Shown here in pieces: positions 1 to 15,372 of a stretch of DNA of 64,000 bases (its first letter is position 1; each line of letters starts with the position of its first letter). The notes under the pieces are model-generated. The model worked only from the letters and a program-made list of their open reading frames with translations. It was not told the DNA's origin and did no database searches. Origin of the DNA: Pseudomonas lalkuanensis (GTDB taxonomy: Bacteria; Pseudomonadota; Gammaproteobacteria; Pseudomonadales; Pseudomonadaceae); NCBI RefSeq assembly GCF_008807375.1, contig NZ_CP043311.1, positions 4,382,001 to 4,446,000 of the forward strand. Reading direction: 5' to 3'. The translations under genes were made by a program, and so were the position numbers.

Positions 1-410
1 CAGCCACCGGAGGCGGCCGCCACCAACCCCAGCACCACGCCGGCGGTGCAGGCCAGCAGGGTGGCCACCAGGGCCAGGCCGATGGTGTAGGGCGCGCCGT
101 ACAGCAGCCGGCTCAAGATATCGCGGCCCAGGTAATCGGTGCCCAGCGGGAACTCCCAGCTGAGTGGGCCGAAGAAGTCATCGCCGATCAGGGCGTTGGC
201 GTCGTGCGGCGCGATCAGCGGGCCGATAAAGGCCATCAGGGCCCAGAACAGTACTAGCAGCAGGCCGATGGCGCCGCCAACGGATAGCGAGAAGCAACGT
301 TTGCGGTGCTTAACGGCAGAGGCCTGGTCCTTCATCGGTCCTTCCGCAGGCAATGCGTTATCGCCATCAGGCGTTCCGTTTGGTTTCGGTGTATTGCGGT
401 TCGCTTTCAT
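1..410 (-). CDS. DppC-type ABC transporter permease (partial, C-terminus outside window)
   Basis: Inner-membrane permease of a peptide/nickel-type ABC importer. Translating the minus strand from the ATG at 408-410 gives a cytoplasmic N-terminus, one long hydrophobic segment and then the family signature GTDYLGRDILSRLLYG, followed by the start of a second membrane segment that runs off the left edge. The start overlaps the stop of the upstream DppB-type gene as ATGA, so the two are translationally coupled. An internal ATG about 27 codons later is an alternative start. The ATPase genes that normally follow (DppD/DppF type) would lie beyond the window. Solute specificity cannot be read from a permease; the family also carries opines, polyamine conjugates and nickel. 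Confidence 0.88.
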   Translation of the reverse strand, partial: MKANRNTPKPNGTPDGDNALPAEGPMKDQASAVKHRKRCFSLSVGGAIGLLLVLFWALMAFIGPLIAPHDANALIGDDFFGPLSWEFPLGTDYLGRDILSRLLYGAPYTIGLALVATLLACTAGVVLGLVAAASGG

Positions 411-1360
411 TTACGCAGCCTCGGGTTGGAAAGAATTGCACAGAGGTCAGCCAGCAGCACCAGCACCAGAAAGCCAAGGCAGAACATCATCACGCATGTC
501 TGTACCAGCGGCATATCTCGAGTAATCACACCGTTCACCATCAACGTCGCGATGCCCGGATAGTTGAAGATCGACTCAACAATCACCACACCACCCAACA
601 GATAGGAAAGACTCAACGCCACGGCGTTGGCGATCGGTCCGATGGCGTTAGGCAGTGCATGACGCAGCACCACGCGGATCGGCCGAGCCCCTTTCAGCAC
701 CGCCATCTCGACATAGGGAGCACTGAGCTGATCGATTACTGCTGCGCGGGTCATACGCGCCATTTGCGCCGTCAGCACGCAGCACAGGGTCAGCACCGGC
801 ATGGCGTAGACGCGCACCAACTCACCGAACGTGTGGACATCGACGTTGCGCGACAGTGCTGACAGCCAGCCCAGCTTCACGGCGAAGATCAACACGGCGA
901 TGGTGGCGATCAGAAATTCCGGGACGGAGACGGCGAACACCGCCAGCATGTTGCTGTAGCGGTCGAAGATCGAGCCGCGATACATTGCCGAGAGAATGCC
1001 GATGGTCAGCGCCAGCGGCACCGAGACCAGCGCGGTGATCACGGCCAGCCTCAGGGTATTGGGTAGGCGGCTGGCGATCATTGAGTCGACCTGCATGCCG
1101 TTGACCAGGGAAACACCTGGGTTGCCGGTAACCAGCCCGCCCAGCCAGTAGAGGTAACGCAGGTAGACCGGCTGATCGAGGCCGAGCTGCGCACGCAGGG
1201 CCGCCACCGCTTCGGGGGTCGCCTCCTGGCCGAGCTGCTCCTGGACCGCATCGCCGGGAAGCAAGCTGGTGAGGAAGTAGACCACCAGCGAAACAATAAG
1301 CAACGTCAGCACGCCGACAGCCAGCCGACCAATCACAAGGCGCGCAATGGTGCTGTTCAT
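407..1360 (-). CDS. DppB-type ABC transporter permease
   Basis: Inner-membrane permease (317 aa) of a peptide-type ABC importer, partner of the DppC-like gene whose start overlaps its stop. The N-terminal membrane helix (residues about 10-35), the periplasmic loop with the PGD and LGLD-P motifs, and the C-terminal ILSNPRLR ending match the DppB/OppB group and its usual length. It lies 72 bp downstream of the solute-binding protein gene, and the gap contains a stable hairpin (1382-1413) of the kind that lowers permease expression relative to binding protein. Part of a likely operon HAD protein - FAD oxidoreductase - binding protein - DppB - DppC. Confidence 0.92.
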   Translation of the reverse strand: MNSTIARLVIGRLAVGVLTLLIVSLVVYFLTSLLPGDAVQEQLGQEATPEAVAALRAQLGLDQPVYLRYLYWLGGLVTGNPGVSLVNGMQVDSMIASRLPNTLRLAVITALVSVPLALTIGILSAMYRGSIFDRYSNMLAVFAVSVPEFLIATIAVLIFAVKLGWLSALSRNVDVHTFGELVRVYAMPVLTLCCVLTAQMARMTRAAVIDQLSAPYVEMAVLKGARPIRVVLRHALPNAIGPIANAVALSLSYLLGGVVIVESIFNYPGIATLMVNGVITRDMPLVQTCVMMFCLGFLVLVLLADLCAILSNPRLRK

Positions 1361-1432: not shown

Positions 1433-3082
1433 TCAGGCATCCAACCAGACGTGTTCGGCGAACATGTAGCCCATCAACCCACCGAGCGGATGGGGAGAAA
1501 GGCCTTTCAGCTTGGCGTTGTGGCCGTCGAGGCTGCTGTTGAACTGCGGGATACCGATGCCGCCGTGCTCATGCACCAGCACCTGCATGTCGGCGTACAT
1601 CTGTTTCCGCTTGGCCTCGTCGGTCTCGCCGCGGGCGGCAAGCAGTAGTTGGTCAAACTGCTCATTCTTCCAGCCCGACTCGTTCATGCTGGCGTCGGAC
1701 TGGAAGAACAGACTGAACAGCAGATCCGCGGTCGGCCGTGTACCGACGTTGCCGAAGCCCAGCGGGTGCTTCATCCAGTGGCTGGACCAGTAGCCGTCTG
1801 CCGGTACCCGTTTGATATCGAGCTTGAGCCCGATCTGCTGGCCCGACAGCTGCAGCAACTGGGCGATGTCCAGCGAACCGGTAGCGGCTTCGGAGGCCAC
1901 CAGCGGAATGGAGCGCCCGGTCATGCCAGACTTCTGCAGGTGAAACTTGGCCTTCTCCGGGTCGAACTCACGCTGCGGAAGACCAGCGAAGTAGTAGCGG
2001 TTGCTCGGGGCGATCGGTTGATCGTTGGCGATGGTGCCGTAGCCACGGTAGGCGACCCGGTTGATCTGCTTGCGATCGAGCAGGTGTTTCATGGCCAGGA
2101 CGAAGTCCGGGTTCTGCACCGGGCCCAGCTCGTCGCGCATCACCAGGTCGGTATAGCCACCGGTCTTGGTCTCCATCAAGGCGACCTTGGGGTTGTCCAG
2201 AAGGCGCGAAACCGAACGCGGGTTGACCGGATTGATCAGGTCCACGTCGCCGGCCAGCAGGGCACTGATACGAGCCGCCTCGTCCGGGATGGAGAAGAAC
2301 TCGATCTCGTCGAGGTAAGGCAGGCCCGGTTTCCAATAGCTGTCGTTGCGCTTGCCGATAGAACGCACGCCCGGCTGGAACTCGACGCATTTGAATGGCC
2401 CGGTGCCATTGGCAATGCTGAAGTCGGTAGTGCCGTCTCGCACAATGAGGAAGTGTGTAGTGCCGAGGATAGCCGGCAGGTCCGCGTTCGGACTGCCCAG
2501 GATGATCTGCACCTCATTGGGACCAACAGCCTTCACTTCACTGAACTGCTTGGCGATTGTCAGTGCCTTGGAACCGAGCTCAGGCAACTTGTGGCGGTTC
2601 AACGAATAGACCACATCCGCCGAGGTGAACGGCTTGCCATCTTGGAACACAACGTCCTTGCGCAGCTTGACGGTCCAGGAGATCGCGTCACTCGTATCGA
2701 ACGACTCTGCCAAGGCCATGCGCGGCACCAACTTCTCGTCCAGCGTGGTCAGGCCGTTGTAGAACATGTTGTGACGACAGTAATCGGTGTAATTCGCACC
2801 CTTGGCCGGGTCCAGCGTGTCGGCGGTAGAACTGGTCGCACTGGCTACCTTGATGCGGCCGCCGCGCTTGCCTTTGCCCGTGTCGGTGGAGGTAGAAGTA
2901 GATGCGAACACCTGACCGGCTGAGCCGAACAGGCTGCTGGCGCCCGCGACAGCCACCCCGGCCAGTCCCAGCATGCGTAGCGCATCACGCCGCGACATAC
3001 CGCGATTGAGTCCTTCGAAAATACGTTGGCTTTCCGAACCGCTGATCAGCTGGGATTCGGTTTTATTCTTGTTGTCAGTCAT
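1433..3082 (-). CDS. ABC transporter substrate-binding protein, family 5 (DppA-like), Tat signal
   Basis: Periplasmic solute-binding protein (549 aa) of the peptide/opine/nickel family 5 type. The N-terminus is long and carries a twin-arginine motif SRRDALRML (Arg31-Arg32), followed by a hydrophobic alanine/glycine-rich segment and a Ser/Thr-rich linker, so export through Tat is predicted. Family features follow: LDPAKG, the NGLTTLDE region, and VVFQDGKPFTSADVVYSL near residues 145-165. It heads the permease pair downstream and follows a FAD oxidoreductase gene. Tat export is unusual for this family, but in many proteobacterial catabolic loci such proteins do carry a Tat signal. The ligand is not predictable; the neighbouring genes suggest an amine or modified amino acid. 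Confidence 0.92.
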   Translation of the reverse strand: MTDNKNKTESQLISGSESQRIFEGLNRGMSRRDALRMLGLAGVAVAGASSLFGSAGQVFASTSTSTDTGKGKRGGRIKVASATSSTADTLDPAKGANYTDYCRHNMFYNGLTTLDEKLVPRMALAESFDTSDAISWTVKLRKDVVFQDGKPFTSADVVYSLNRHKLPELGSKALTIAKQFSEVKAVGPNEVQIILGSPNADLPAILGTTHFLIVRDGTTDFSIANGTGPFKCVEFQPGVRSIGKRNDSYWKPGLPYLDEIEFFSIPDEAARISALLAGDVDLINPVNPRSVSRLLDNPKVALMETKTGGYTDLVMRDELGPVQNPDFVLAMKHLLDRKQINRVAYRGYGTIANDQPIAPSNRYYFAGLPQREFDPEKAKFHLQKSGMTGRSIPLVASEAATGSLDIAQLLQLSGQQIGLKLDIKRVPADGYWSSHWMKHPLGFGNVGTRPTADLLFSLFFQSDASMNESGWKNEQFDQLLLAARGETDEAKRKQMYADMQVLVHEHGGIGIPQFNSSLDGHNAKLKGLSPHPLGGLMGYMFAEHVWLDA

Positions 3083-3209
3083 ATCGTTCTACCTGTCGAT
3101 AATGAGAAGGCTCGAATGCCCGCAGTTGAGCGGAGCCACCTGGTAACGCAAACGACGGTGAATCAACAGTCTCGCTCGTGTGGATAGCTCTCCTTGACCA
3201 CGTATGCGC

Positions 3210-4484
3210 TTAATGCAAATAGTCCTGGACCCGGTAATAGGCACCCACCAGCGGCAGGAACCACGGCTTGCCGAAATGGCCGGGAATCGCCGGCCAGCTC
3301 AGTTCACCCCAGGGATTGGCCTCGACCTTGCCGTCCATCACCTCAGCCATCACCTGGCCCATGTGCACCGACATCTGCACGCCATGGCCGCTGTAGCCCA
3401 TGGAGTGGTACACGCCACCATGCTGGCCGGCGCGTGGCAGGCGGTCAGAGGTCATATCCACCAACCCGCCCCAGCAGTAGTCGACTTTTACGTGGGCCAA
3501 TTGCGGAAACATCTGCGTCAAAGCCGCCTGTAGCACCTTGCCGCTCTTCACGTCGGAACTTCCGCCGGACATGGCGAACCGCGCCCGTCCACCGAACAGC
3601 AGACGGTTATCCGGGGTAAGACGGAAGTAGTTGCCGATGGTGCGACTGGTGACGTACGAGCGACGCTGCGGCAACATCTGCTCGATCATGGCGTCGGACA
3701 ACTTCTCGGTGGCGATGATGAAGCTGCCCACAGGCACGATCCGACGCCGGTACCAGCCCAGGCCGCCATGCTGGCTGGCGCCGGTCGCCATCAGCACCTG
3801 GCCGGCCTGAAGGCTGCCGCGGCTAGTATCGACCCGGTAGCCACCAGCGGCGGCCTTCCAGCCCTGCACGGTGGTCTGCTCGTAGACCAACGCGCCGTGC
3901 CGCGCCGCCGCCTCCGCCAGACCGATACCGAAGCGGCCGATATGCATCTGCACACCGTTGCGCTGCAGCAGACCGCCATGGAACTCGGCCGAATCGACTT
4001 CGCTGCGCACCTGATCGGCGGACAGCAACTCGACCTCGGCATCGACCTCCTGGCGGATCACCTCACAAGTCCGCGCCAGCCCCTCGTAGTGATGAGGCTT
4101 GGCGGCCAGCTTGAGCTTGCCGTTGCGGGTGAGATCACAGGCAATTCGTTCCTGCTCGACCAGCGCGACCACGCTCTGCACCGCGCTTTCGTAAGCACGG
4201 TAGTAGCGGCGCGCCCGCTCGGTTCCAAGGCTGGCGGCCAGCCCCACGTAGTCATGAGCAACCCCGGTGCTGCAATGACCGCCGTTGCGCCCGGACGCCT
4301 CGCCGATCACCCGCCCGGCTTCCAGCACTGCTACGCTGGCCCCTTTCATGGCCAGAGAACGGGCAGCCGAAAGACCGGTGAAACCTCCGCCGACAACAAC
4401 CACGTCGACCCGAGCCGGAAGCGATCCGGTCTGCGCCCCAGTGAATGCAGGCGCCGTGTCGAGCCAGTAGGAATCGCTGTGCAT
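3210..4484 (-). CDS. FAD-dependent oxidoreductase, DAO family (gamma-glutamylputrescine oxidase-like)
   Basis: A 424-aa flavoprotein of the D-amino-acid oxidase/PuuB group. The dinucleotide-binding motif VVVGGGFTGLSAARSLA lies at about residues 28-45, followed by the conserved EAGRVIGEASGRNGG stretch (FAD contact). The C-terminus has the GYSGHGVQMSVHMGQ region typical of these amine oxidases. It would oxidise a primary or secondary amine to an imine or aldehyde. It sits between a HAD-type protein (26 bp upstream including the short gap) and the ABC binding protein, so uptake and first oxidation may be coupled. Annotators often name this family gamma-glutamylputrescine oxidoreductase, but no glutamylpolyamine synthetase is present here, so the real substrate is open. 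Confidence 0.88.
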   Translation of the reverse strand: MHSDSYWLDTAPAFTGAQTGSLPARVDVVVVGGGFTGLSAARSLAMKGASVAVLEAGRVIGEASGRNGGHCSTGVAHDYVGLAASLGTERARRYYRAYESAVQSVVALVEQERIACDLTRNGKLKLAAKPHHYEGLARTCEVIRQEVDAEVELLSADQVRSEVDSAEFHGGLLQRNGVQMHIGRFGIGLAEAAARHGALVYEQTTVQGWKAAAGGYRVDTSRGSLQAGQVLMATGASQHGGLGWYRRRIVPVGSFIIATEKLSDAMIEQMLPQRRSYVTSRTIGNYFRLTPDNRLLFGGRARFAMSGGSSDVKSGKVLQAALTQMFPQLAHVKVDYCWGGLVDMTSDRLPRAGQHGGVYHSMGYSGHGVQMSVHMGQVMAEVMDGKVEANPWGELSWPAIPGHFGKPWFLPLVGAYYRVQDYLH

Positions 4485-4510
4485 CTCCAGCTCCTCGTGC
4501 GAAGTGGCGA

Positions 4511-5179
4511 TCAGAGCCCAACCAGGGCAGGCAGGCCGCCGATGTCGGAGATCTGGTGGTAGCTGTAGCAGGTATTACCCGGCTGTTCGTGGCCACGGGC
4601 GACGAAGGCCTTGTTCTTGATCTTCATGTCGTGGGCCGACATCAGGTCGTAGCGGAAGCTTGAAGACACGTGCAGTACGTCTTCCGGACCGCAACCGAGG
4701 TTGTCGAGCATGTATTCGAAGGCGGCCAGGCGAGGCTTGTAGGCCTGGGCTTGTTGGGCAGTGAAGACCTTGTGGAAAGGAACGCCCAGCTTGTCGACGT
4801 TGGACATGATCTGCTCGTCCATCGCGTTGGAGAAGATCACCAGCGGGATCTTGTCAGCGATCTTCGACAGACCGGCCGTAACATCGGCATGCGGCCCCCA
4901 CGTCGGCACGGCATCGTAGTAGAGCTGGCCTTCGCCGCGATACTCGACACCCCAGCGCTTGCACACCCGAGCAAGGGCGGTCTTCAGAATTTCATCATAA
5001 GGCCGCCAGTCGCCCATCACCTGATCCAGGCGATAAGCGGCGAAGTCCTGAACGAACTGGTCCATCTGCTCGGCCGGCACGCGATCAGCGAACAGCTCTC
5101 GGGTCAAAGGGCCCATCTGGAAGTTGGTCAGAGTGCCGTAGCAGTCGAAGGTGATGTACTTGGGTCGAAGAAAGCTCAT
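4511..5179 (-). CDS. HAD superfamily protein, haloacid dehalogenase type II (copy 1)
   Basis: A 222-aa HAD protein. Motif I is FDCYGTLTNF, with the single nucleophilic Asp of dehalogenases and Cys-Tyr where phosphatases have the second Asp. The conserved Lys is in QAYKPR and motif IV is the VSSSFRYDLMSA stretch. The ATG at 5177-5179 is chosen because the family starts at MSFLRPKYITFD; the extra 17 upstream residues look like leader. It is clearly paralogous to the HAD gene at 10171-10875. It is first in the operon with the FAD oxidoreductase and the importer. 2-Haloacid dehalogenation is only one possibility; such copies beside amine oxidases probably act on another substrate. Confidence 0.86.
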   Translation of the reverse strand: MSFLRPKYITFDCYGTLTNFQMGPLTRELFADRVPAEQMDQFVQDFAAYRLDQVMGDWRPYDEILKTALARVCKRWGVEYRGEGQLYYDAVPTWGPHADVTAGLSKIADKIPLVIFSNAMDEQIMSNVDKLGVPFHKVFTAQQAQAYKPRLAAFEYMLDNLGCGPEDVLHVSSSFRYDLMSAHDMKIKNKAFVARGHEQPGNTCYSYHQISDIGGLPALVGL

Positions 5180-5421
5180 GGCGCAGTCCTGATGTCTTGT
5201 TGAAGTTATTGCAGTCAACATCGACTCCACTGGAGAAACTCTGACGTCGCGCTGTACTGCCTGATCATTACAGCACTGTGACCCCAGCAGATGAGGTTAA
5301 AAGCGCCGCCCCCTCGATACAAAAAACCGTTTTGCAGGCTCGCCTCAGCAGACTTTGCGGATCGAACTTAAAACGTGAAAAACCACGGTCCATGCGCCTT
5401 TCACAGGTCCACACAAACGCA

Positions 5422-5444
5422 AAGGGCGCCCATCGGGCGCCCTT
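5422..5444 (-). terminator. Hairpin after aldehyde dehydrogenase gene
   Basis: Perfect inverted repeat AAGGGCGCCC-ATC-GGGCGCCCTT starting 22 bp beyond the aldehyde dehydrogenase stop. On the minus strand it is followed by TGCGTTTGTGT, a weak T-rich tail. Confidence 0.7.
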
Positions 5445-5465
5445 GTGAGTCACATCGCAGCAGAA

Positions 5466-6935
5466 TCAACCGATATCGATCAGCACACTTTTGTGCCGCA
5501 AATTGGCCTCGAAGGCCTCGCTGCCAAGGTCCTTGCCAATACCCGAACGCTTGTAGCCTCCGGTAGGTAGTACATGGTCGTCGCTGCGACCATAACGATT
5601 GACCCACACCGTGCCGACCTCGAGACCGCGGATCAGGCGCAATGCGCGATTGAGGTCGGCGGTGTGCACCCCGGCCGCCAGGCCATAGGTGGGGTGTTCG
5701 GCCAGTTGCAGCGCCTGCTGTTCGTCTTGGAAGGTCTGAATGGTCAGCACCGGGCCGAAGATTTCTTCGAGCACCGCCGGGTTGCGGCTGTCCGCCACGC
5801 CCAACAGGGTGGGCTGGTAGTAGGCGCCGCCTAGGCCGTCGATCGACCCACCACCCTCGAGAACTTCGGCGCCGGCCTGGCGTGAACGCTGGACGATCCC
5901 GTCGATGCGCTCGGCCTGCTGACGCGAGATGATCGGCGACAGACTCGTCTGCGTCGCCCAGGTATGGCCGGGGCGCAGTTCGCGGAAATAGTCCCGCAGG
6001 TACTCGACGAAGGGATCCAGAATTGAGCGCTCGATGATCAGGCGCGAACCGGAGACGCAGACCTGACCGGCGTTTCCGGTGATTCCCTTGGCAACGCTGA
6101 GGGCGGTCCTGCGCAGGTCCGGAACATCGGCGAACACCAGTTGCGGGCTCTTGCCGCCTAGCTCTAGGGTGACCGGCTTGGGTCCGAACTTGGCGCAGGT
6201 CGACATGATGCTCGCGCCGGTGGCGGTGGAGCCGGTGAAGGTCACTTTGCTGATTCGCGGATGGCGGCACAGTGCATCGCCGGTGAGCCGGCCATCGCCC
6301 TGCACCACATTGAGGATGCCCGGCGGGAGGCCGGCCTGCACTGCCAATTCGGCGTAACGCAGGATGGAGAATGGCGTGAGCTCCGACGGCTTGAGGACGA
6401 CGGCATTACCAGCCGCCAGGGCGGGTGCGACCTTCCAGTTGGCCATGCTCAGCGGGAAATTCCACGGAGCGATGGCACCGATCACCCCATAGGGTTCGGC
6501 GATCTGCATCCCGAGACGATCGCGCTGGGTGGCCGCCACCTGCCCGCCATGCTTGTCCGCCAGCTCGGCGAAGAAGCGCAGCACCTCAGCCACATAGGGA
6601 ATGTCCCAGCCCAGCACATCTTTATGCGGACGGGTCGAACCGACCGCCTCCATCGACGCCAGCGTGGCTGCATCGGCCTCGATCAGGTCTGCCCAGCGGC
6701 GCAGGACACGGCAGCGCTCGCGCGGCGGACGGGTTGCCCAGTCGCTGCGGCAAAAGGCCTGCCAGGCGTTCTCCACTGCCTCGTCAACCAATGCCACATC
6801 GGCGACCGGCAGCGGCGCGTAATAACGGCCATCGGAGGGGCGCGCCACCTCCAGCCCCGGAAGGCCGTCGCGGTATCTGCCACCAATGAAGTGGGCACTA
6901 CGGACCTTGACGATGCTAGGGTCGAAGCTGTTCAT
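5466..6935 (-). CDS. NAD(P)-dependent aldehyde dehydrogenase
   Basis: A 489-aa soluble aldehyde dehydrogenase of the betaine-aldehyde/gamma-guanidinobutyraldehyde type. The cofactor region APWNFPL (about 156-162), the general base Glu258 in LELGGKSP, the catalytic Cys293 in GNAGQVCVSGSR and the C-terminal EIFGPVL motif are all present. It would oxidise the aldehyde made by the neighbouring amine oxidase or by the phospho-lyase encoded upstream. It is transcribed alone: a hairpin follows it and 298 bp of noncoding DNA with the conserved repeat block lie before it. The precise aldehyde is unknown. Confidence 0.92.
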   Translation of the reverse strand: MNSFDPSIVKVRSAHFIGGRYRDGLPGLEVARPSDGRYYAPLPVADVALVDEAVENAWQAFCRSDWATRPPRERCRVLRRWADLIEADAATLASMEAVGSTRPHKDVLGWDIPYVAEVLRFFAELADKHGGQVAATQRDRLGMQIAEPYGVIGAIAPWNFPLSMANWKVAPALAAGNAVVLKPSELTPFSILRYAELAVQAGLPPGILNVVQGDGRLTGDALCRHPRISKVTFTGSTATGASIMSTCAKFGPKPVTLELGGKSPQLVFADVPDLRRTALSVAKGITGNAGQVCVSGSRLIIERSILDPFVEYLRDYFRELRPGHTWATQTSLSPIISRQQAERIDGIVQRSRQAGAEVLEGGGSIDGLGGAYYQPTLLGVADSRNPAVLEEIFGPVLTIQTFQDEQQALQLAEHPTYGLAAGVHTADLNRALRLIRGLEVGTVWVNRYGRSDDHVLPTGGYKRSGIGKDLGSEAFEANLRHKSVLIDIG

Positions 6936-6995
6936 AAAGGACTCCAGGATAAGGGCTTGGCACCGGCTCGGTGCGTACGTGACCAGGCCTCCATC

Positions 6996-7095
6996 CTAGG
7001 AAACATTGCCCGATATATGCTGCCGACCTTACCCCCCATTTGAGCAGTAGCTGCGGCTTGTCGAGCCGCCATTTGCGCAATATACCGAAATCCCT
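6996..7095. promoter_or_regulatory. Conserved intergenic block, copy A
   Basis: About 100 bp between the Lrp-type gene and the aldehyde dehydrogenase gene, 61-160 bp before the latter. It shares ordered motifs with two other intergenic blocks (16196-16296 and 18175-18280): CTAGGAAA, CCCGATAT, TGCTGC, a GAGCAGTAGCTG stretch and a final ATATACCGAA. Just outside it, 6959-6973 holds the inverted repeat GCACCG-GCT-CGGTGC, partly kept at copy B. The likely role is binding of a locus regulator, possibly the adjacent Lrp-type protein; this is inference from repetition and position. Confidence 0.6.
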
Positions 7096-7233
7096 CATCG
7101 CACATGGCAGCAGCTGCGTATAGCCGCCTTATCCGGCCCGCCGCGAAAGGTTAGAAGCACGACCGAACACAAACTCCATCCGCAGACTCATAGCGCTGCA
7201 AGGACGAAATTCATGCGCCAACGTGACGCTTGA

Positions 7234-7737
7234 TCAGTCCCAACTTGGCTTTCCGGTTGCGATGGTGTTCAGCGGATACCCGCGTCGATCGAGCGGCTCA
7301 CGCAGTACGATACGGCTGGCAAATTTCTCGATGCCGATCTCGTCATCCAGCAGCCGATCCATCAGTGCCTGGAACCAGGTAATGCTGGGTGCCACGATTT
7401 TCAGTAGGTAGTCGTAACCGCCGCTGACGTTGTAGCACTCGACTATCTCCTGATACTTGCCAACCCCGGCTTCGAACTTGCGGAAGTCGCGGGGTCGATG
7501 GCTGCTGATGGTCACCTCGGAAAACACCACGACGTGGCTGCCCAGCTTCTCCAGCGCAACCTCCGCACGGTAGCCGCGGATGACGGCGGTATCCTGCAGA
7601 CGTTTGGTGCGCAGCAGACACGGGCTCTCACTGAGGCCGATGGCTGCCGACAGATCGACATTGGAACAGCGCCCCTCGCGCTGAAGATGCAAAAGAATCT
7701 TGATATCGAACAGGTCGAGGGAAGCCGTAGGTCGCAT
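7234..7737 (-). CDS. Lrp/AsnC family transcriptional regulator
   Basis: A 167-aa feast/famine regulator. The N-terminal winged helix-turn-helix (LDLFDIKILLHLQREGRCSN onward, residues 6-55) is followed by the RAM/ligand-binding domain with the ECYNVSGGYDYLLKI signature. It starts 21 bp after the class III PLP enzyme gene and is the last gene of the HAD-kinase-lyase operon. Lrp-type proteins in such positions usually respond to the amino acid or amine that the operon degrades and act on the operon and its neighbours. The conserved block immediately downstream is a candidate target. Confidence 0.92.
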   Translation of the reverse strand: MRPTASLDLFDIKILLHLQREGRCSNVDLSAAIGLSESPCLLRTKRLQDTAVIRGYRAEVALEKLGSHVVVFSEVTISSHRPRDFRKFEAGVGKYQEIVECYNVSGGYDYLLKIVAPSITWFQALMDRLLDDEIGIEKFASRIVLREPLDRRGYPLNTIATGKPSWD

Positions 7738-7758
7738 GTCGATTACCTTCGAGGCCGG

Positions 7759-9111
7759 TTAGCGCGCCTTTGCAGATTGTGCTTCAGTCAGCGCTGCGTC
7801 GAGCGTCTCGATCACCATACCGGCTTGCTCTGCCGTCAGCACCAACGGTGGTCGAATCTTCAGCACATTGTGTCCCATCGCACAGGCGCTGAGCAGGACA
7901 CCTTTGTCGCGCATCAAATTGACCACCCGGGTGGTGAGCTCGCGGTCGGGGGCTCGCGTTGTGCGGTCCGCGACGAGTTCCACAGCGACGAACATGCCCG
8001 CACCTCGTACATCACCGATGGCCTCGTGCCGGTCGGCAAGCGCGGCGATACCTTCGCGCAGAATCTTCCCGACCCTGGCGGCATGCTGCACCAGGCCTTC
8101 CTTCTCGATCGTATCGAGCACGGCCAACGCTGCGGCGCAAGAGACGGTATTGCCGGCGAAAGTATTGAAGTACCTGGAGTTCTTGCCGAACTCCGCCAAC
8201 ACCTCAGCGGTGGCCAGCAGTCCCGCGATAGGTTGCCCGTTGCCCATCGGCTTGCCCAGGGTGACGATGTCGGGGATCACGCCATGACGCTGGAAGCCCC
8301 ACATGTGCTCGCCCGTCCGGCCGAATCCAGGCTGGACCTCGTCGGCGATGAAAATGCCACCGGCCCGCTTGATCGCCTCGACCGCGCCCTTCAACAGGCC
8401 CGCTGGCTCAGGCAGGATGCCATCACTGGTGAACAGCGAATCGACGATGAGTGCCGCCGGCTTGATGCCGTGACGCTGCAGATCGGCGATCGCCACCTCG
8501 ACATCGCGGGTGAAGCGTTCGCAGAGATCGGCACCCTCGGCATGGTAGAGACGCGGCGCCGGCACCAGGCGAACGTGGGCCCCGAGATCAACCGTCACGC
8601 CGAGCGAAGGCGAGAACTTCGACACCGCATCGGTGAAGCCGTGATAGGCGGTCTCAGTGACGATCACTCCGGTGCCGCCGGTGCGCACCTGGGCGATGCG
8701 ATAGGCGACGTCGTTTGCCTCGCTACCCGTGCAGGTCAGCATCAGATGCGCGAGCTCGGTCTCGGGCACCGTGGCGAGCAGGCGCTCGGCCAGTTCGAGA
8801 ATGGTATTGTGCAGATAGCGGGTGTTGGTCGCCAGCGTCTGCACCTGCCGGCAGATTGCCTCGGTCACGGCCGGGTGGCAATGCCCGAGCGAGGCCACGT
8901 TGTTGTACACGTCGAGGTAACGGCGCCCCTCCGGATCGATCAGCCACACGCCCTCGCCGCGCACGATATGCAGTGGGTGCTCGTACATCAGCCGATAGGC
9001 CGGGCCGAGCAAAGCGTCGCGCCGCTCGATCATCGCCGCGGTTGCGGGGCTTAGTTCGGCGCGTCCAGGGATATAAGCGTTGACCATGTTGAGGTCAGTG
9101 GTGCTCTTCAT
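7759..9111 (-). CDS. Class III PLP enzyme, amino-alcohol-phosphate phospho-lyase-like
   Basis: A 450-aa fold-type I PLP enzyme normally annotated as a class III aminotransferase. The Schiff-base lysine is Lys287 in TLGKPMGNGQP and the pyridine-N aspartate is Asp257 in ADEVQPGFGR. The match is closest to the AGXT2L1/AGXT2L2 subgroup (ethanolamine-phosphate and 5-phosphohydroxylysine phospho-lyases): YNNVASLGHCHP at 69-80, NTRYLHNTI at 96-104, YFNTFAGNTVSC, and NVLKIRPPL near the end all parallel the human enzymes as I remember them. Its start overlaps the end of a hydroxylysine-kinase-like gene by 17 bp, which supports a kinase-then-lyase pathway giving an aldehyde, ammonia and phosphate. A plain transaminase or a PbfA-like ammonia-lyase remains possible. 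Confidence 0.85.
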   Translation of the reverse strand: MKSTTDLNMVNAYIPGRAELSPATAAMIERRDALLGPAYRLMYEHPLHIVRGEGVWLIDPEGRRYLDVYNNVASLGHCHPAVTEAICRQVQTLATNTRYLHNTILELAERLLATVPETELAHLMLTCTGSEANDVAYRIAQVRTGGTGVIVTETAYHGFTDAVSKFSPSLGVTVDLGAHVRLVPAPRLYHAEGADLCERFTRDVEVAIADLQRHGIKPAALIVDSLFTSDGILPEPAGLLKGAVEAIKRAGGIFIADEVQPGFGRTGEHMWGFQRHGVIPDIVTLGKPMGNGQPIAGLLATAEVLAEFGKNSRYFNTFAGNTVSCAAALAVLDTIEKEGLVQHAARVGKILREGIAALADRHEAIGDVRGAGMFVAVELVADRTTRAPDRELTTRVVNLMRDKGVLLSACAMGHNVLKIRPPLVLTAEQAGMVIETLDAALTEAQSAKAR

Positions 9112-10171
9112 TGGTTTGTCCTTTGCGTACTTCGGTGAGTAATAGGTCGCGCGCCTGATCGCGGGAAAGGTCGGCCATCAGCGACAGCGCCTCCCACGAG
9201 GCGGGGTTGTGGCGCATGATGTAGGCGCGGTTCTCCGGGTAGCGCCTGGCCCGCCACTCCGAAATCAACACGGTGATCAGATGACGTGTGGCCATGAGAT
9301 CGGTAACGACCTCCTGCTCCATTTCGCTGAGCGGCAGCGTGGCGTGATAAGCGCCGACGAACTGCGCCGCCCCCTCGAACGGATCGGCGCTGCCAGTCAT
9401 GTGAAAGGCCGCCGCCGTGGCGACCTCCCCCACCAGCGGGGCATGCAGCATATCGCCGAAGTCGATGATTCCCACGATGCGCTGATGGTCCTCTGGGGCG
9501 ACCAGCACGTTGTAGAGGTGGTAATCGTTGTGGATGACCTGCGACCTGAGCGCCGGCAGACGCGGCAGCACATGCTCGGTGAAGCGCGTCATGAACGACT
9601 CGGCGAGCGCGCGGCGCGGGGCGTCCTCGATGGCATCGAGCTTGGATGCCAGGCGCTGCGCCGCGGAAACGTTCCACAGCAGATCGTGCGTCGCCGAAGG
9701 ATGGTTGAAATCACGCAGTGCCAGGTTCAGTTCCGCGAGCAATCGTCCCATGGCCCGACGCTGCGCGGCGGTACGCGGGGTTTCGCGGATCTGTACGCCT
9801 TCGAGATAGGTCAGCATCCGCACGCTGGTCTGCACCCCGCCGGCCAGCGCTACGCTGTCGCGCGCACGCCCGCCAAGCGTGCGCACCACCCGCGGCGCCG
9901 GCAGGCCGGGCGCGACGCGGGCGATGTGCTCGAGCGCCGCGATCTGAAAATCCACCACCGCAAGCGGCTCCGATGGATTGCTGATCTTAACGACGTAACG
10001 CCTGCCGTCGGCCGTCTCCACGCAACAGTTCTGGTCGCGTTCGCCCACCAGTGATTTAACGCTGCCATCGATGCCGTAGAGACAGCGAACCAAGGCCCGC
10101 ACCTCGTTCGGGGCGAGGTTGGGTGCCGCCGTGCTCAACGCCGCTGCCGCCATCGGACGATTGTCTGCCAT
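9095..10171 (-). CDS. APH-family phosphotransferase, hydroxylysine/amino-alcohol kinase-like
   Basis: A 358-aa small-molecule kinase of the aminoglycoside phosphotransferase fold. VVKISNPSEP holds the ATP-contacting Lys, VIHNDYHLYNVLV is the Brenner-type catalytic motif (Asp and Asn), and GIIDFGDMLHAPLVGE holds the metal-binding Asp. The C-terminal RYPENRAYIMRHNPASWEAL block is also found, in similar form, in human hydroxylysine kinase. The start is the ATG at 10169-10171, which overlaps the TGA of the HAD gene by one base; an in-frame extension further upstream has no support. The downstream gene codes for a phospho-lyase-like enzyme, so the kinase probably phosphorylates the hydroxyl group of a hydroxylated amine. 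Confidence 0.87.
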   Translation of the reverse strand: MADNRPMAAAALSTAAPNLAPNEVRALVRCLYGIDGSVKSLVGERDQNCCVETADGRRYVVKISNPSEPLAVVDFQIAALEHIARVAPGLPAPRVVRTLGGRARDSVALAGGVQTSVRMLTYLEGVQIRETPRTAAQRRAMGRLLAELNLALRDFNHPSATHDLLWNVSAAQRLASKLDAIEDAPRRALAESFMTRFTEHVLPRLPALRSQVIHNDYHLYNVLVAPEDHQRIVGIIDFGDMLHAPLVGEVATAAAFHMTGSADPFEGAAQFVGAYHATLPLSEMEQEVVTDLMATRHLITVLISEWRARRYPENRAYIMRHNPASWEALSLMADLSRDQARDLLLTEVRKGQTNEEHH

Positions 10172-10875
10172 CACTCGCCCCGTTTCATCGGGGCGGTCTG
10201 GGCTAGGCAATCGAGGCCGAGCAAACCGGGAAGTTGGCGAATATCCGTCAGGCGGTTGACACCATAGCCGTCGCAGGCAGGCGCGTGACCGCGGTCGATA
10301 AAGGCCTTGGCCATGAATCCGAGATCCGACGCGGTCATCAGGTCGTAACGGAAGCACGACGAGACGTGCATCATCTGCTCCGGCCCGCAGCCGAGCTGGT
10401 CGAACATGTACTCGAACATCTGCGCCCGCGGCTTGTAGGCGCGAGCCTCTTCGGCGGTGTAGACCGCGTGGAAAGGCGCCTTGAGGTGGGCGACGCTGTG
10501 CGGGATCAGATCGACCATCGAGTTCGACAGAATTACCAGCGGAACATGCGGAGCGATTGCCTCAAGCGTCTCGACGACGTTCGGGTGCGGCTGCCAAGTC
10601 GGCACGGCCTCGTACAGGGCGAGCGCATCGGATGCACGATATTCCACGCCGTGCTTCTTGCACGTGCGTTGAATGGAGTTCTCCACCACATCGAAGAACG
10701 GCTTCCACTCACCCAGTACCTCATCGAGACGGTAGAAGCGAAAGCTGTCCAGGAAGGCCGGCATCCGCTCGCTCGGAACGCGATCTTCGAAGAGCTTTTT
10801 CGCGGTCGGGCCCATTTCGAAGTTGATGAGCGTGCCGTAGCAATCGAAGCTGATGAATTTCGGTTTGTATGTCAC
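10171..10875 (-). CDS. HAD superfamily protein, haloacid dehalogenase type II (copy 2)
   Basis: A 234-aa HAD protein very similar to the one at 4511-5179 throughout (FDCYGTLINFEMGP, EAVPTW, ARAYKP, HVSSCFRYDLMTA). Like copy 1 it has Cys-Tyr after the nucleophilic Asp, so the second acid of phosphatases is missing. The start is GTG at 10873-10875, supported by TAGGAG nine bases upstream. It heads the operon with the kinase, PLP enzyme and Lrp-type regulator, with one-base coupling to the kinase. Having one HAD copy at the head of each of two operons suggests that they act on related intermediates. Confidence 0.86.
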   Translation of the reverse strand: MTYKPKFISFDCYGTLINFEMGPTAKKLFEDRVPSERMPAFLDSFRFYRLDEVLGEWKPFFDVVENSIQRTCKKHGVEYRASDALALYEAVPTWQPHPNVVETLEAIAPHVPLVILSNSMVDLIPHSVAHLKAPFHAVYTAEEARAYKPRAQMFEYMFDQLGCGPEQMMHVSSCFRYDLMTASDLGFMAKAFIDRGHAPACDGYGVNRLTDIRQLPGLLGLDCLAQTAPMKRGE

Positions 10876-11143
10876 TTGGTCGATCTCCTACAGGTGGATG
10901 ACAGGTTGGTGACTACAAGTCTATGAATCTCAGCCCTACGGAAATGCTCTATTGCCGGGTGACTCAGGCAGATTCCTGCTTGATCCGGAGCATGCTGGCA
11001 GGATCTGCGGCCCTCCCTTGAAGGGCCGTGATCGGCCGGCGTGGCGTCGTCACACCCACGCATTCAGACGGGGGTAGCAGCTGCGTTGGCCAGTAAGTTT
11101 TTCTGGGCAGCGCGACCCATTCTTTTCCTGCTTGGCAAAACAA

Positions 11144-11170
11144 AACGCCCCTCCATTAAGGAAGGGCGTT
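11144..11170 (-). terminator. Rho-independent terminator after the dehydratase gene
   Basis: Read on the minus strand: AACGCCCTTCC, a short loop, GGAGGGGCGTT, then TTGTTTTG. It begins 16 bp beyond the dehydratase stop. The rest of 10876-11185 shows no gene. Confidence 0.8.
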
Positions 11171-11185
11171 CGGCAGTACGCGGCA

Positions 11186-12184
11186 TCACGGTTTTCTATG
11201 CGGACTGTCCATTGCGTAGGCAGAGGCGTAGACCTCGGCCAGGTCGCACAGGTCCCAGTTGCCACCGGTCAGCACCACGCAGACCTTCTCATCCGGCCGG
11301 ACCTTGACCACACCCGCCAGCAGCGCACCGATACCGATCGCGGCGGCGGGCTCGGCGATTAGTTTCGCGTCCTTGGCCAGGGCGCGCATGCCTTGGACGA
11401 TGTGCTCGTCCTCCACCAGGACGATCTCGTCAACGTAGCGCTCGATGATCGGATAGGGGTTCTGCCCCGGCACGCTGATGCGCAATCCATCAGCGATAGT
11501 GTTCTTCAAGGGCAGCGTGGTGCGCTGCTTGTTCAACCGGCTGTGGTAGTACTTAGGCGTCAGCGCCGGCTCCGCACCGACGACGCGCACCGATGGCCGG
11601 GTTTCCTTGATGGCGGTGGCGATGCCTGATATCAGGCCGCCGCCGCCCATGGGGATGATGACCGTATCGACATCCGCCAGGTCTTCGAGGATCTCGCAGC
11701 CGATGGTGCCCTGGCCGGCCATCACCAACGGGTCCTCGAAAGCATGGACGGGCACATAGCCGTTCTCCTCGGCGATCTCATACACCCTTTTCCAGCGGGC
11801 AGCGGTGTCGCCATCGAAAAGAATGACCTCCGCCCCGAGGGCTTCGGTATTGGCGATCTTGATCTTGGGTGTGGTCACCGGCAACACCAGAATAGCTTTC
11901 ACGCCCAGCATGCGGGCAGCATAGGCAAGGCCCTGGGCGTGATTGCCGGACGAGGTGGCGATGATGCCGTTGGCGATCTCTTCCCTGGGTAGCGACAGTG
12001 TCTTGTTCAACGCGCCGCGAATCTTGAACGCCCCGGTGATCTGCAGGGTTTCGGGCTTCAGATAGAGCTGGCAACCGGCGGCTTTTTCTATCTTCTCCGC
12101 GCGCAGTAGCGGCGTATGTTTGATATGGGGTTTGAGCCGCTGTTGGGCTTCTCGAATGTCCTGAATGGTCGGATGGTCGCGCAT
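11186..12184 (-). CDS. PLP-dependent serine/threonine dehydratase family (EutB / BhcB-like)
   Basis: A 332-aa fold-type II PLP enzyme. The Schiff-base Lys54 lies in ITGAFKIRGA, the phosphate or substrate loop is SSGNHAQG, and the PLP-phosphate glycine loop is GGGGLISG. There is no C-terminal ACT domain, so it is of the catabolic type. Its partner 35 bp upstream is an ornithine-cyclodeaminase-fold reductase; this pairing defines the EutB-EutC group of ectoine loci and BhcB-BhcD of the beta-hydroxyaspartate cycle. The likeliest reaction is 3-hydroxyaspartate to iminosuccinate. Threonine or serine dehydratase activity cannot be excluded. A terminator follows the gene. Confidence 0.85.
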   Translation of the reverse strand: MRDHPTIQDIREAQQRLKPHIKHTPLLRAEKIEKAAGCQLYLKPETLQITGAFKIRGALNKTLSLPREEIANGIIATSSGNHAQGLAYAARMLGVKAILVLPVTTPKIKIANTEALGAEVILFDGDTAARWKRVYEIAEENGYVPVHAFEDPLVMAGQGTIGCEILEDLADVDTVIIPMGGGGLISGIATAIKETRPSVRVVGAEPALTPKYYHSRLNKQRTTLPLKNTIADGLRISVPGQNPYPIIERYVDEIVLVEDEHIVQGMRALAKDAKLIAEPAAAIGIGALLAGVVKVRPDEKVCVVLTGGNWDLCDLAEVYASAYAMDSPHRKP

Positions 12185-12219
12185 ATGATGTCCTCTCTCC
12201 TACTTCCGAAAATCACGTC

Positions 12220-13209
12220 TCAAAGGAACGCGAAGAAGGTTCCGACGTTGTTTTCCAGCGCATTGCGATAGATTTTTTCGGCCGTGGTGTTGTCCTGTAT
12301 GGCCATGCCGGTGGAGTCGAAAATGGTGATCTCATCATCGTTCTCCCGGCCCGGTTTTCTGCCCAGCAGGATCTCGCCGAGCTCGGCGTGGATATCGTCC
12401 AGACCGATGATCTTCTGGTTGAGCGGATGCCAGGTTTCCCCTTTGTCGATGCACTGCGAGATCGAGTCGTTGACTATCTTGGCGTGCCTGAATATCTCGG
12501 GATCCAGCTCCTGCTTGCCTTTCATATCAGTACCGATGGCGACGATATGAGTGCCGGGTTTCACCCAGCTCGCCTCTACCAGCGAGCCCTTGCCACGGGT
12601 GGTGGTGATGAGGATGTCGGCCTGCTCGACCGCCTCCTGCTTCGAGTCCGCCAGGATCACCGGGATGCCGAACTCGCCTTCGATATCCGCCTTGAAGCGC
12701 TCGCGCGTTTCCGGGCTTCTGCTCCAGGCATGGATCTCTTCGATCTGCATCACCAGGCTGATGGCGCGAATCTGCATCCGCGCCTGGTTGCCGGTGCCTA
12801 TGCAGGTGATCTTCTTGGCGTTCTTTCTCGCCAGCGCCTTGACCGAGACGGCGCCCGACGCGCCCGTCCTGAGGCCGGTGAGCAGGCTTCCATCCATCAC
12901 GCAGATCAGCGCGCAGCTCCTGGCATCGAACAGCAGAACGCTACCCATACCGTTGGGCACACCATGCGCGTCCGGGTTATCGAGGAAGCCGCCGGACGAG
13001 GCCTTCATCGAGATGATTTCATTGGTCTTGCAGTAACCGACCTTGAAGTCGATCTCGCCGCGCGGCTCCGGCAGATGTATGCCTATGTAATCGGGCTGTT
13101 CCACCTGCCCACCGCTGAAAGCCTTATAGGCCTCTTCCACAGCACCTATGACTTCCTTCATGGATATCAATCTGCCGACTTCTTCTTTGCTGAGCAGCAG
13201 TGTTTTCAT
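12220..13209 (-). CDS. Ornithine cyclodeaminase/mu-crystallin family reductase (EutC / BhcD-like)
   Basis: A 329-aa NAD(P)-dependent enzyme. The substrate-side lysine lies in [24 protein letters not shown] is the family's mid motif, and the Rossmann motif is [13 protein letters not shown]. It is co-transcribed with the dehydratase (35 bp gap). In characterised BhcD this fold reduces iminosuccinate to L-aspartate, which would complete a two-step conversion of 3-hydroxyaspartate to aspartate. In ectoine loci the homologue is called EutC, but no ectoine hydrolase is visible here. True ornithine cyclodeaminase activity is a less likely alternative given the partner gene. Confidence 0.85.
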
Positions 13210-13787
13210 CTACGGGATCTCGTTGCTCTCTAATCGGGGCAGGGATTCGTACAGGCATGATCAGCGCAAATAACTCGAGAGTGCCGTGCCTATCTGCTGC
13301 GCTCAGTATGCCGCCGAGCAATCGGCAGAAAATTTCGGATACCAGGCGACTGCGCAACTTCCGATCATTTTTATCGCCATCGGCGAAAGCTATCGCTCCA
13401 CTCCTGCAACTCACGCATCGCTCCCCAGGCCGTGCAGCAGGCATTCCCGTAGCTACAGAACCTGGCGCCCCCAACACCGCAGCAGAAACTTCCGAGGGCA
13501 ACCTCGAAAACACCCGATTCTGCGATTGCACACGGCCAATACGACAGCCCCCGCCGGGGCGTGATGCCTAAGATTAGGATCAGCGCAACGGCATCGATGA
13601 CTGCCGGAGCCTGGTCTGCCACGCCGAAACGAGCGACAAGGCGGGAGACCCGAATCTCAGTTTCGATCATCCGCTCTGGTGCGCATCGATCAACTTAATC
13701 GGCGCGCGCCGACACGGCCTTGCAGCGCTGGTCTGCACCGATTTCTGCAAAGCCGTAAAACAACAGGTTCCAGGCTAGGAGAACAGA
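13210..13787. other. Noncoding divergent intergenic region
   Basis: 578 bp between the divergent reductase and FAD oxidoreductase genes. The short open frames on both strands lack ribosome sites and resemble no protein I know. It presumably carries the two promoters. A stretch near 13300-13350 faintly resembles the conserved 100-bp block in reverse, but not enough to call. Confidence 0.5.
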
Positions 13788-15113
13788 ATGCCGGCTCCCT
13801 TGATCACCATGCAGTCCAGTCCGGAGCTGCCAAAAAGCGCCGATGTCGTCGTCATCGGCGGCGGCATCATTGGCGTATGCGCCGCCTATTTCATGTCGCG
13901 CCAGGGCATGAGTGTTGCCCTGGTGGAGAAGGGACGTATTGGCGCAGAACAATCCAGCCGCAACTGGGGCTGGTGCCGCCAGCAGAACCGCGATGCGCGC
14001 GAACTGCCGTTATCGACCAAGAGCCTTGCGCTCTGGGAGGAGATCAGCGCCGACCTCGGCGAAGACCTCGGTTTCCGCCGCTGTGGGCTGTTCTATCTGT
14101 CGGATGACCAGGCCGAACTCGATGGCTGGGCCAAGTGGCGCGACTTCGCCATCACCCAGGGAGTCACCACCCATATGCTAAGCAGCGCCGAAGCCACCCA
14201 ACGTGGCGCGGCCACCGGCAAGCCCTGGCTGGGTGGGGTATTCTCGCCATCCGACGGCATCGCCGATCCGGCGCGGGCTGCACCGCTGATCGCCAAGGGC
14301 GTCATCAAGCATGGCGGCACGATCCATCAGTTTTGCGCCGCCCGCGGCGTTGAGACCGAGGCCGGCCGCGTATCGGGAGTCATCACCGAAAAAGGCGTGA
14401 TCAAGACCCGCCAGGTGGTGATGGCCGGCGGTGCCTGGGCCTCCTCTTTCTGCGCCCAGCTTGGGATTCGCTTTCCTCAGGCCTCGGTGCGCTCCTCCAT
14501 TCTCTCGGTTATGCCGGGTATACAGGGGATTCCAGATGCGCTGCATACCAGTGAGGTGACCGTCACTCGGCGGGGCGACGGCGGCTATACCTTGGCCATT
14601 TCCGGACGTGCCTGCGTGGATCCGACGCCACAGCAACTACGCTTCTCCTCGTACTTTCTGCCGATGTTCGCCAAGCGCTGGCAAATGCTCTCACCGGGTG
14701 ACCTGCAGGGTTGGCAATACGGACACGAGACGCGCAGCAAATGGGCGCTCGACCGGCCCACACCGATGGAGCGGGTGCGCATCCTCGATCCGCGCCCGTC
14801 GGAATCGATACTGCGCGATACGCTGGCCCGCGCGCGCCGACTACTGCCCGCTCTGGGCAGCGTACCGGTTCAGGCAGGCTGGGCCGGCTATATCGACAGT
14901 ACCCCCGATGGTGTACCAGTCATCGATGAGGCGCAAAACCTGCCTGGCTTCATTCTGGCCGCAGGCTTCTCGGGTCACGGCTTCGGCATCGGCCCCGGCG
15001 CCGGGCGCCTGATCGCCGAACTGGCACAGGGGCAGACGCCGTTCGTGGACCATACCCAGTACAGCCTCGCACGCCTGAACAAAGGCGTCTGGGGCAAGGT
15101 CTCGGAGTTCTGA
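13788..15113 (+). CDS. FAD-dependent oxidoreductase, DAO/DadA-like family
   Basis: A 441-aa flavoprotein. VVVIGGGIIGVCAAYFMS (about residues 19-36) binds FAD, followed by EKGRIGAEQSSRNWGWCRQQ and the C-terminal GFSGHGFGIGPGAGRLIAE motif. It resembles D-amino-acid dehydrogenase and D-hydroxyproline-type enzymes more than the PuuB-like gene at 3210. The ATG at 13788 has TAGGAG eight bases upstream. It is monocistronic and divergent from the dehydratase/reductase pair, and a hairpin lies 16 bp after it. It probably deaminates a D-amino acid or a secondary amine taken up by this locus; its substrate is unknown. Confidence 0.87.
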   Translation: MPAPLITMQSSPELPKSADVVVIGGGIIGVCAAYFMSRQGMSVALVEKGRIGAEQSSRNWGWCRQQNRDARELPLSTKSLALWEEISADLGEDLGFRRCGLFYLSDDQAELDGWAKWRDFAITQGVTTHMLSSAEATQRGAATGKPWLGGVFSPSDGIADPARAAPLIAKGVIKHGGTIHQFCAARGVETEAGRVSGVITEKGVIKTRQVVMAGGAWASSFCAQLGIRFPQASVRSSILSVMPGIQGIPDALHTSEVTVTRRGDGGYTLAISGRACVDPTPQQLRFSSYFLPMFAKRWQMLSPGDLQGWQYGHETRSKWALDRPTPMERVRILDPRPSESILRDTLARARRLLPALGSVPVQAGWAGYIDSTPDGVPVIDEAQNLPGFILAAGFSGHGFGIGPGAGRLIAELAQGQTPFVDHTQYSLARLNKGVWGKVSEF

Positions 15114-15128
15114 GCACCTCGCCGCTCT

Positions 15129-15149
15129 GGCGGGAGCCTCGCTCCCGCC
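15129..15149 (+). terminator. Hairpin after FAD oxidoreductase gene
   Basis: GGCGGGAG-CCTCG-CTCCCGCC followed by TCTTCTCC. There is no clean T-run, so it is a weak terminator call. The rest of 15114-15372 shows no gene. Confidence 0.5.
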
Positions 15150-15372
15150 TCTTCTCCCCTTCGTTATCGACCGAGCTGCTCGAACCTGTGAGCGAGTATC
15201 GGACTGCCTTGGGCAACCCTGCCCCTCTTCTGCAATCCAATCCAGTTGGCTGAAACGCGGCAGCCCCGGCGTGCCGCTCGGGACAATTACGCCATAAAGA
15301 GAGCAGAAGAGCCGGGGGCCAACTGGTAAAGCGCCTGCGGATCGCTATCGCGCAAGCGCCGACCACCAAGGC

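Follow-up and report, generated by a model that had tools for sequence, protein, structure and literature searches.

On the minus strand of a 64,000-nucleotide stretch of the Pseudomonas lalkuanensis genome (the window; positions 4382001-4446000 of a 6.06-Mb single-contig genome), a HAD hydrolase (HAD1), a small-molecule kinase, a class III pyridoxal phosphate (PLP) enzyme of the phospho-lyase clade, and an Lrp/AsnC-family regulator form a conserved unit that probably removes ammonia from a hydroxylated amino acid. A kinase acting together with a phospho-lyase is a known means of removing an amine next to a hydroxyl, as in human ETNPPL and PHYKPL and in the aminopropanol kinase system, and the initial annotation of this interval was right that such chemistry is not new to bacteria. 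Here it is tied to a HAD of the carbon-bond-cleaving kind, and in two lyase lineages. The unit sits in a catabolic island that routine annotation hides and whose substrate annotation does not reveal. If that substrate were identified, it would make sense of many genes that carry the names "haloacid dehalogenase," "aspartate aminotransferase," and "phosphotransferase," and an amino compound widespread in the environment, perhaps a plant metal chelator, could prove to be a bacterial nutrient.

A conserved hydrolase-kinase-lyase-regulator unit

HAD1 (10171..10875) is followed by the kinase (9095..10174; 359 amino acids), the PLP enzyme (7759..9111; 450 amino acids), and the Lrp/AsnC-family gene (7234..7737). 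The kinase overlaps the PLP enzyme gene by 17 bp (9095-9111), and its start lies at 10174 rather than at the listed open reading frame (ORF) start of 10357, which is too early, giving a 4-bp ATGA overlap with the HAD1 stop. Between HAD1 and the gene upstream of it, a fold II PLP dehydratase gene (TDH), there is a terminator-like hairpin (11143..11171, minus strand), the position of which suggests that HAD1, kinase, lyase, and Lrp probably make up a transcription unit of their own. This hairpin is the longest and most paired of 12 terminator-like sites in positions 1-13800, compared with 9.2 expected from shuffled sequences. No Rfam RNA element reached its gathering score in positions 1-20000 of the window.

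Conservation was assessed around the best 80 of 444 lyase relatives, so that the counts favor close relatives; neighbors were counted up to 10 kb on each side of the lyase, and 14 of the 80 loci are shortened by contig ends. Lyase identity is 66 to 98% in 77 of them, the closest relatives (98%) coming from Pseudomonas sp., and by record title the loci belong to Pseudomonas, Halomonadaceae, Burkholderiales, Erwiniaceae, sphingomonads, and others. A kinase relative adjoins the lyase in 80/80 loci, a HAD lies at most 3 kb upstream in 73/80, and an Lrp relative lies at most 2 kb downstream in 69/80; all three accompany the lyase in 65 of the 77 loci with at least 66% lyase identity. The conserved unit is therefore HAD hydrolase, kinase, lyase, and Lrp regulator, and the interval 7234..10875, which starts with the regulator and ends with the hydrolase, takes in both.

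The initial annotation had described an APH-fold kinase, with putative hydroxylysine-kinase features, overlapping a class III PLP enzyme by 17 bp, had quoted four motifs from the latter (GHCHP, NTRYLHNTI, YFNTFAGN, and NVLKIRPP), and had added the aldehyde dehydrogenase (AldDH; 5466..6935, minus strand) as the third gene of a route from amino alcohol to acid. The overlap is as described, all four motifs are present in the translation, and the pairing of kinase and lyase is real, but the set that includes AldDH is not supported. A relative of AldDH with at least 55% identity occurs near only 10 of the 80 loci, and AldDH goes with an oxidase-HAD pair more than with the lyase, standing next to that pair in 6 of 17 stretches of the island in which no lyase is seen. 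HAD and Lrp, of which the initial annotation made no use, complete the unit instead.

Kinship of the PLP enzyme, the kinase, and the hydrolases

By domain content the PLP enzyme is a class III enzyme (PF00202, 254 bits), with its Schiff-base lysine expected at K287 in TLGKPMGNG. Its solved relatives are led by two phospho-lyases, 5g4i (370 bits) and 6tor (335 bits), which we take to come from Arthrobacter and human, respectively; the other 58 among the best 60 of 147 matches score 214 bits or less. With the Arthrobacter class III phospholyase and the human ethanolamine-phosphate phospho-lyase it shares the class III fold and the PLP lysine. In a 39-row tree, which has three long outgroup branches, the enzyme falls inside a 30-row phospho-lyase clade (support 100/100) that also takes in 5g4i, 6tor, and the lyase domain of L135, a natural fusion of kinase and lyase, apart from the sampled transaminases: six class III enzymes of the same genome, one racemase, and two PbfA sequences lie outside, and no grouping with omega-transaminases was seen. 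The phospho-lyase clade is also recovered in a second, 26-row tree (99/97). Branching among the lyase groups is only partly resolved in both trees, and six of the 20 next-most-similar lyases are among the rows of the 39-row tree. The window enzyme keeps nine residues that 5g4i and 6tor share and that none of the outgroup rows compared has (N70, W271, P288, M289, N291, F315, N316, S408, and K418). Phylogeny thus supports calling the PLP enzyme a phospho-lyase rather than a transaminase, as the initial annotation had proposed. Its remark that standard annotation conceals the pair is also borne out, since on a Variovorax plasmid the two genes are labeled "phosphotransferase" and "aspartate aminotransferase family protein."

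Two other known systems resemble the pair in part. PbfA, the (R)-1-hydroxy-2-aminoethylphosphonate ammonia-lyase, is a class III enzyme that eliminates rather than transaminates (PMC8154272); it lies outside the phospho-lyase clade, and the window enzyme scores 207 bits against the PbfA model NF049939, for which the cut-off is 525. The PRK06148/PRK06149 fusions, which presumably have the domain order APH-peptidase-aminotransferase, are matched in their first and last parts by the window kinase and lyase (289 and 466 bits), but in the window the genes are separate and the scores are far under the 1128-bit cut-off. The fusion L135 is of the PRK06148 type (1282 bits, cut-off 1128; above the cut-off in 1 of 185 genomes), and its lyase part groups with 6tor. 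Long ORFs in the sister loci raised the prospect of kinase-lyase fusions there, yet no ORF longer than 450 amino acids had a kinase match.

Within the clade the window lyase falls into a distinct subclade (100/99 in the 39-row tree), whose 14 sampled rows are mostly HAD-linked, and 5g4i groups not with this subclade but with the other lyase of the same genome. Thirteen of the 14 rows have a HAD just upstream, the exception being L022; beyond these 14, membership in the subclade was assigned by identity of at least 66%. Unlike 5g4i and 6tor, the subclade carries two arginines, Arg275 and Arg313, which also occur in the next clade and in the three second-lineage rows examined (see below), whereas 5g4i, the own-genome paralogue, 6tor, and the fusion have A, M, or L at the first position and L, M, or E at the second. 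Such residues would be compatible with the binding of a carboxylated substrate.

The kinase has PF01636 (APH; 99 bits) as its sole Pfam match, and its catalytic motifs, H215-N-D217, N222, and D238-F-G-D241, are invariant in 34 rows, which gives the HNDxxxxN and DFGD pattern of the fold. Its best solved match by profile is 6ef6, a microcompartment aminopropanol kinase (E value, 7.6e-10), followed by the homoserine kinase 2ppq. In searches with a predicted model (pLDDT 92), the top folds by E value were 2ppq, amicoumacin kinase, and N-acetylhexosamine kinase, and the best folds include 6sui; 6ef6 ranked 12th but was among those with the highest TM-scores (0.70/0.76). Although 6ef6 is thus the best profile match and among the closest folds, it is only 17% identical to the window kinase; its system presumably pairs a kinase with a phospho-lyase too. 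Together these matches support a kinase that may act on a small hydroxy compound, with no particular substrate indicated. No second relative of the window kinase was found in its own genome at E values of 1e-5 or lower.

HAD1 is a type II HAD, of the 2-haloacid dehalogenase kind (TIGR01428, 157 bits; cut-off, 125). Its nucleophile lies in a DxY motif (D11-C-Y13), found in 38 of 39 HAD rows, the remaining row (L042) having a wrong start, and it lacks the aspartate at +2 that marks the phosphatase DxD. R49, K148, and D178 are invariant, and S117-N118 is present in HAD1. (This alignment, A1, includes the second HAD of the window and the wrong-start row; in alignment A2, row L033 has a shifted end.) DxY with this arrangement of R, SN, K, and D is typical of haloacid dehalogenases and of related enzymes that cleave carbon bonds. 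The DxY motif led us to reject a role for HAD1 as a phosphatase for the kinase product; because the window HADs carry DxY and not DxD, HAD1 may instead generate the hydroxyl that the kinase phosphorylates.

The nearest solved relatives of HAD1 by profile are L-azetidine-2-carboxylate hydrolase (3smv, 8ywo, and 8yvw) and a relative (8hp5-8hp7), at 92 to 97 bits, with all others at 54 or less. Its model (pLDDT 93) matches three kinds of carbon-bond hydrolase about equally, namely cis-epoxysuccinate hydrolase, a dehalogenase, and azetidine hydrolase. Identity to the azetidine hydrolases is only 23 to 26%, and HAD1 forms with its paralogue HAD2 a clade of their own on a long stem, outside the characterized azetidine-2-carboxylate hydrolase clade (100/99, in a tree without a dehalogenase outgroup). 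Two own-genome HADs intended for that outgroup fell away, L164 because it covered under 10% of the columns and L165 because it had no match. The azetidine hydrolase substrate is therefore not transferable to them. The genome has nine type II HAD matches, of which HAD1 and HAD2 alone are above the cut-off.

The catabolic island and a second lyase lineage

The minus-strand genes at this end of the window run, in order of transcription, OCD, TDH, HAD1, kinase, PLP enzyme, Lrp/AsnC, AldDH, HAD2, FAD oxidase, solute-binding protein, and permease. HAD2 (4511..5230) is directly upstream of the FAD-dependent oxidase FADox (3210..4484), a DAO-family protein and the strict partner of these HADs. After it come a family 5 solute-binding protein of the dipeptide/nickel/opine type (1433..3082) and a permease of the same ABC transporter (407..1360), and the island runs on beyond the window. 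We searched 298 genomes, all from this family and taken from a larger group, for the HAD (E value of 1e-40 or lower) and FADox (1e-100 or lower). Each was found in 31 genomes, the same 31, and in all 31 the two genes are at most 300 bp apart; the nominal probability of this (8e-43) is too small, since the genomes are related, but the pairing is plain. A lyase of the window type (at least 90% identity) occurs in seven genomes, all among the 31. The simple ORF tables miss some genes, among them HAD2-FADox in L190, which these searches did detect. The island's fixed core is accordingly the amine oxidase FADox with the second HAD, and HAD-kinase-lyase-Lrp is an optional module.

Across 17 island neighborhoods the common set is HAD2, FADox, binding protein, permeases, and ATPase. 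The varying genes are paired oxidase subunits with a small 2Fe-2S-like protein (by eye), an M20 deacylase, a succinate-semialdehyde dehydrogenase (SSADH), and a tartrate-dehydrogenase-family protein. In the genome studied here the last three are above curated cut-offs (518 bits against 412, 687 against 646, and 551 against 470, respectively), as is a gamma-aminobutyrate (GABA) transaminase further along (526 against 507), and plasmids of Rhizobium and Chelatococcus carry the same kinds of gene by annotation. TDH (11186..12184) and the ornithine-cyclodeaminase-family reductase OCD (12220..13209), both on the minus strand, make up another optional module. Near the 80 lyase loci, TDH with OCD was found in 20, FADox in 26, the binding protein in 19, and relatives of DAO2, a second DAO-family oxidoreductase encoded on the plus strand at 13788..15113, in 31.

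Four of the 31 island genomes (L192-L195) contain a second phospho-lyase lineage, 49 to 50% identical to the window lyase, and in all four loci the lyase is adjacent to a kinase (30 to 31% identical to that of the window) and to a HAD (87 to 88% identical to HAD2). The 26-row tree places these lyases in a clade by themselves (100/100), separate from that of the window (94/99), with the branching between the groups not resolved. The set lies inside a full island in L193 and L194; in L192 it is next to a 55% FADox relative and a binding protein, and in L195 it is at a different place from the HAD-FADox pair of that genome (L196).

Two further plasmid loci may be mentioned here. On a plasmid of Variovorax sp. 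SRS16 (L205), the island includes an annotated fur gene (ferric uptake regulator; 13680-14120) not far from HAD1-kinase-lyase; among the 80 loci, 3 have a Fur relative. On a plasmid of Burkholderia ambifaria (L208), annotation lists two azetidine-hydrolase-like HADs, Lrp, SSADH, a class III-type transaminase, an FAD/Fe-S oxidoreductase, and a GABA permease, a set that resembles a pathway for azetidine-2-carboxylate or 4-amino-2-hydroxybutyrate.

Proposed reactions and candidate substrates

We hold with roughly even confidence that HAD1, the kinase, and the lyase act in series as one deaminating module of the catabolic island; here it is the reactions, their order, and the substrate class that we infer. 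HAD1, via an aspartyl ester, would act on an amino-acid-like substrate, hydrolyzing a bond between carbon and a leaving group such as the nitrogen of a strained ring, and its product would be a vicinal amino alcohol bearing a carboxylate. The kinase would phosphorylate the new or an adjacent hydroxyl, after which the lyase would expel phosphate and ammonia, as ethanolamine-phosphate phospho-lyase does, leaving an aldehyde that general semialdehyde dehydrogenases of the host or the island could oxidize. The Lrp regulator probably acts as the sensor for this amino-acid substrate. Direct feeding of the kinase by azetidine-2-carboxylate or homoserine was considered and dropped, because amine and phosphate would then be 1,3 and not vicinal.

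Several observations weigh against this series of steps. No activity was found for any protein of the unit. Azetidine-type HADs give products with amine and hydroxyl 1,3 to each other, as the title of one structure also suggests, and a beta-eliminating lyase cannot use these directly. Around the 20 next-most-similar lyases (52 to 61% identity) a kinase is present in 16 loci and a HAD in none, so that a HAD is not needed for the kinase-lyase chemistry and the place of HAD1 could be at some other step of the pathway; a binding protein, of polyamine type by eye, neighbors the lyase in 11 of these 20. Even among the 77 close relatives, four have no HAD nearby (L022, L041, L065, and L068), and one of these, L022, belongs to the 14-row subclade. 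The second lineage has its HAD after the lyase, and only two of the four loci are in a full island. Finally, Arg275 and Arg313 are shared by the next clade.

The alternative nearest to the initial annotation is that kinase, lyase, and AldDH degrade a plain amino alcohol (ethanolamine, 1-amino-2-propanol, or 5-hydroxylysine) with the HAD as a bystander. Given the match of the kinase to 6ef6 in both profile and fold and the closeness of the lyase to 5g4i and 6tor, we treat this as a serious but unlikely reading; 5-hydroxylysine in particular, whose amino-acid end is distal to its vicinal amino alcohol, might suit the extra arginines, but it would leave the HAD without a role. The scarcity of AldDH near the lyase (10/80) stands against it, as does the linkage of the HAD, which is found in 73/80 loci and again beside the second lyase lineage. 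Ethanolamine-like substrates are also less likely because a further lyase of this genome clusters with 5g4i, and beside that lyase there are, by eye, an APH-like kinase and a permease. In this second locus (L010, C1:2555000-2574000) the lyase is at 9187-10554, the kinase at 8154-9236, and an amino-acid permease at 10460-11782, all on the minus strand; the kinase has no detectable relationship to that of the window, and the pair may be the genome's ethanolamine/aminopropanol-type pair. That the window enzyme is an ordinary class III aminotransferase next to an unrelated APH kinase seems to us very improbable, as Pfam and RefSeq-style annotation alone favor it, against its place in the phospho-lyase clade, the clade residues, the natural fusion L135, and a linkage of 80/80. 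Two specific substrates were also weighed. The oxidase might split hypusine into 4-amino-2-hydroxybutyrate, for a transaminase, SSADH, and D-malate dehydrogenase, or 2-hydroxyputrescine, for the kinase, the lyase, and an aminobutyraldehyde dehydrogenase. We consider this improbable: it draws on the tartrate dehydrogenase family protein, members of whose family presumably act on D-malate too, on the SSADH and the more distant GABA transaminase, and on the best NCBIfam match of AldDH, which is aminobutyraldehyde dehydrogenase but under the cut-off (414 against 615), and it offers no role for either HAD or for the strict pairing of HAD and oxidase (31/31). A hydroxyectoine branch, in which the pair would turn 3-hydroxy-2,4-diaminobutyrate into aspartate semialdehyde and TDH and OCD would be EutB and EutC, has suitable chemistry for a phospho-lyase, and TDH and OCD are in the EutB and EutC superfamilies, which is what suggested it. 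It was dropped as a general substrate and seems to us scarcely credible. EutD, though present in the own genome, is above its cut-off in only 2 of 25 other core-bearing genomes (25 of the 80 loci), both Halomonadaceae; the own-genome EutD (791 bits) and EutB (482 bits) sit in a separate cluster; and TDH scores 219 to 248 bits against the EutB model TIGR02991 (cut-off, 413) and OCD 240 against the EutC model TIGR02992 (472). TDH and OCD likewise fall under the cut-offs for BhcB (NF045641; 264 against 550) and BhcD (NF045643; 218 against 500). The separate ectoine/hydroxyectoine catabolic cluster (L126, C1:12000-31500) has EutB and EutD above cut-off and, by eye, an ABC transporter, a MocR-type regulator, EutC, EutE, SSADH, and a transaminase.

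The boldest reading would have the whole island break down plant metal chelators that contain azetidine (nicotianamine and mugineic acid phytosiderophores), a conjecture that we think distinctly doubtful. HAD2 would open the azetidine ring, and FADox and the second oxidase would cut the N-alkyl chains to C4 units. Transaminase, SSADH, and D-malate dehydrogenase would convert (R)-4-amino-2-hydroxybutyrate to pyruvate, TDH-OCD would handle a 3-hydroxyaspartate unit, and HAD1-kinase-lyase would turn a 3-hydroxylated azetidine unit via 4-amino-2,3-dihydroxybutyrate into malate semialdehyde; a hydroxylated ring is required to supply the kinase-lyase step. The leads, which suggest this by kinship, are the relationship of the HADs to azetidine-2-carboxylate hydrolase, which has a relative whose structure title describes it as trapped with (2R)-4-amino-2-hydroxybutanoate; the presence, within the island or next to it, of the tartrate-dehydrogenase-family protein, SSADH, and a GABA-type transaminase; the nickel/opine/dipeptide-type transporter; and the fur gene of one Variovorax island. 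Against them stand the separate clade of HAD1 and HAD2, the deacylase and acetyltransferases, which are left without a role when every other gene class receives one, and carriers some of which are not plant-associated by name.

Elsewhere in the window, a cupin-type protein (15373-16098, minus strand) has relatives that recur in 8 loci, clustered, and a GNAT-type protein (18101-19228, plus strand) in 3. Farther along, minus-strand genes for an FAD oxidoreductase, a binding protein, a fused permease, and an ATPase (48083-53256) appear by eye to be an aminoethylphosphonate-type uptake and use cluster, and two FUSC-type exporter gene sets with membrane-fusion partners, also identified by eye, lie at 24563-29427 and 41077-44190 on the minus strand.

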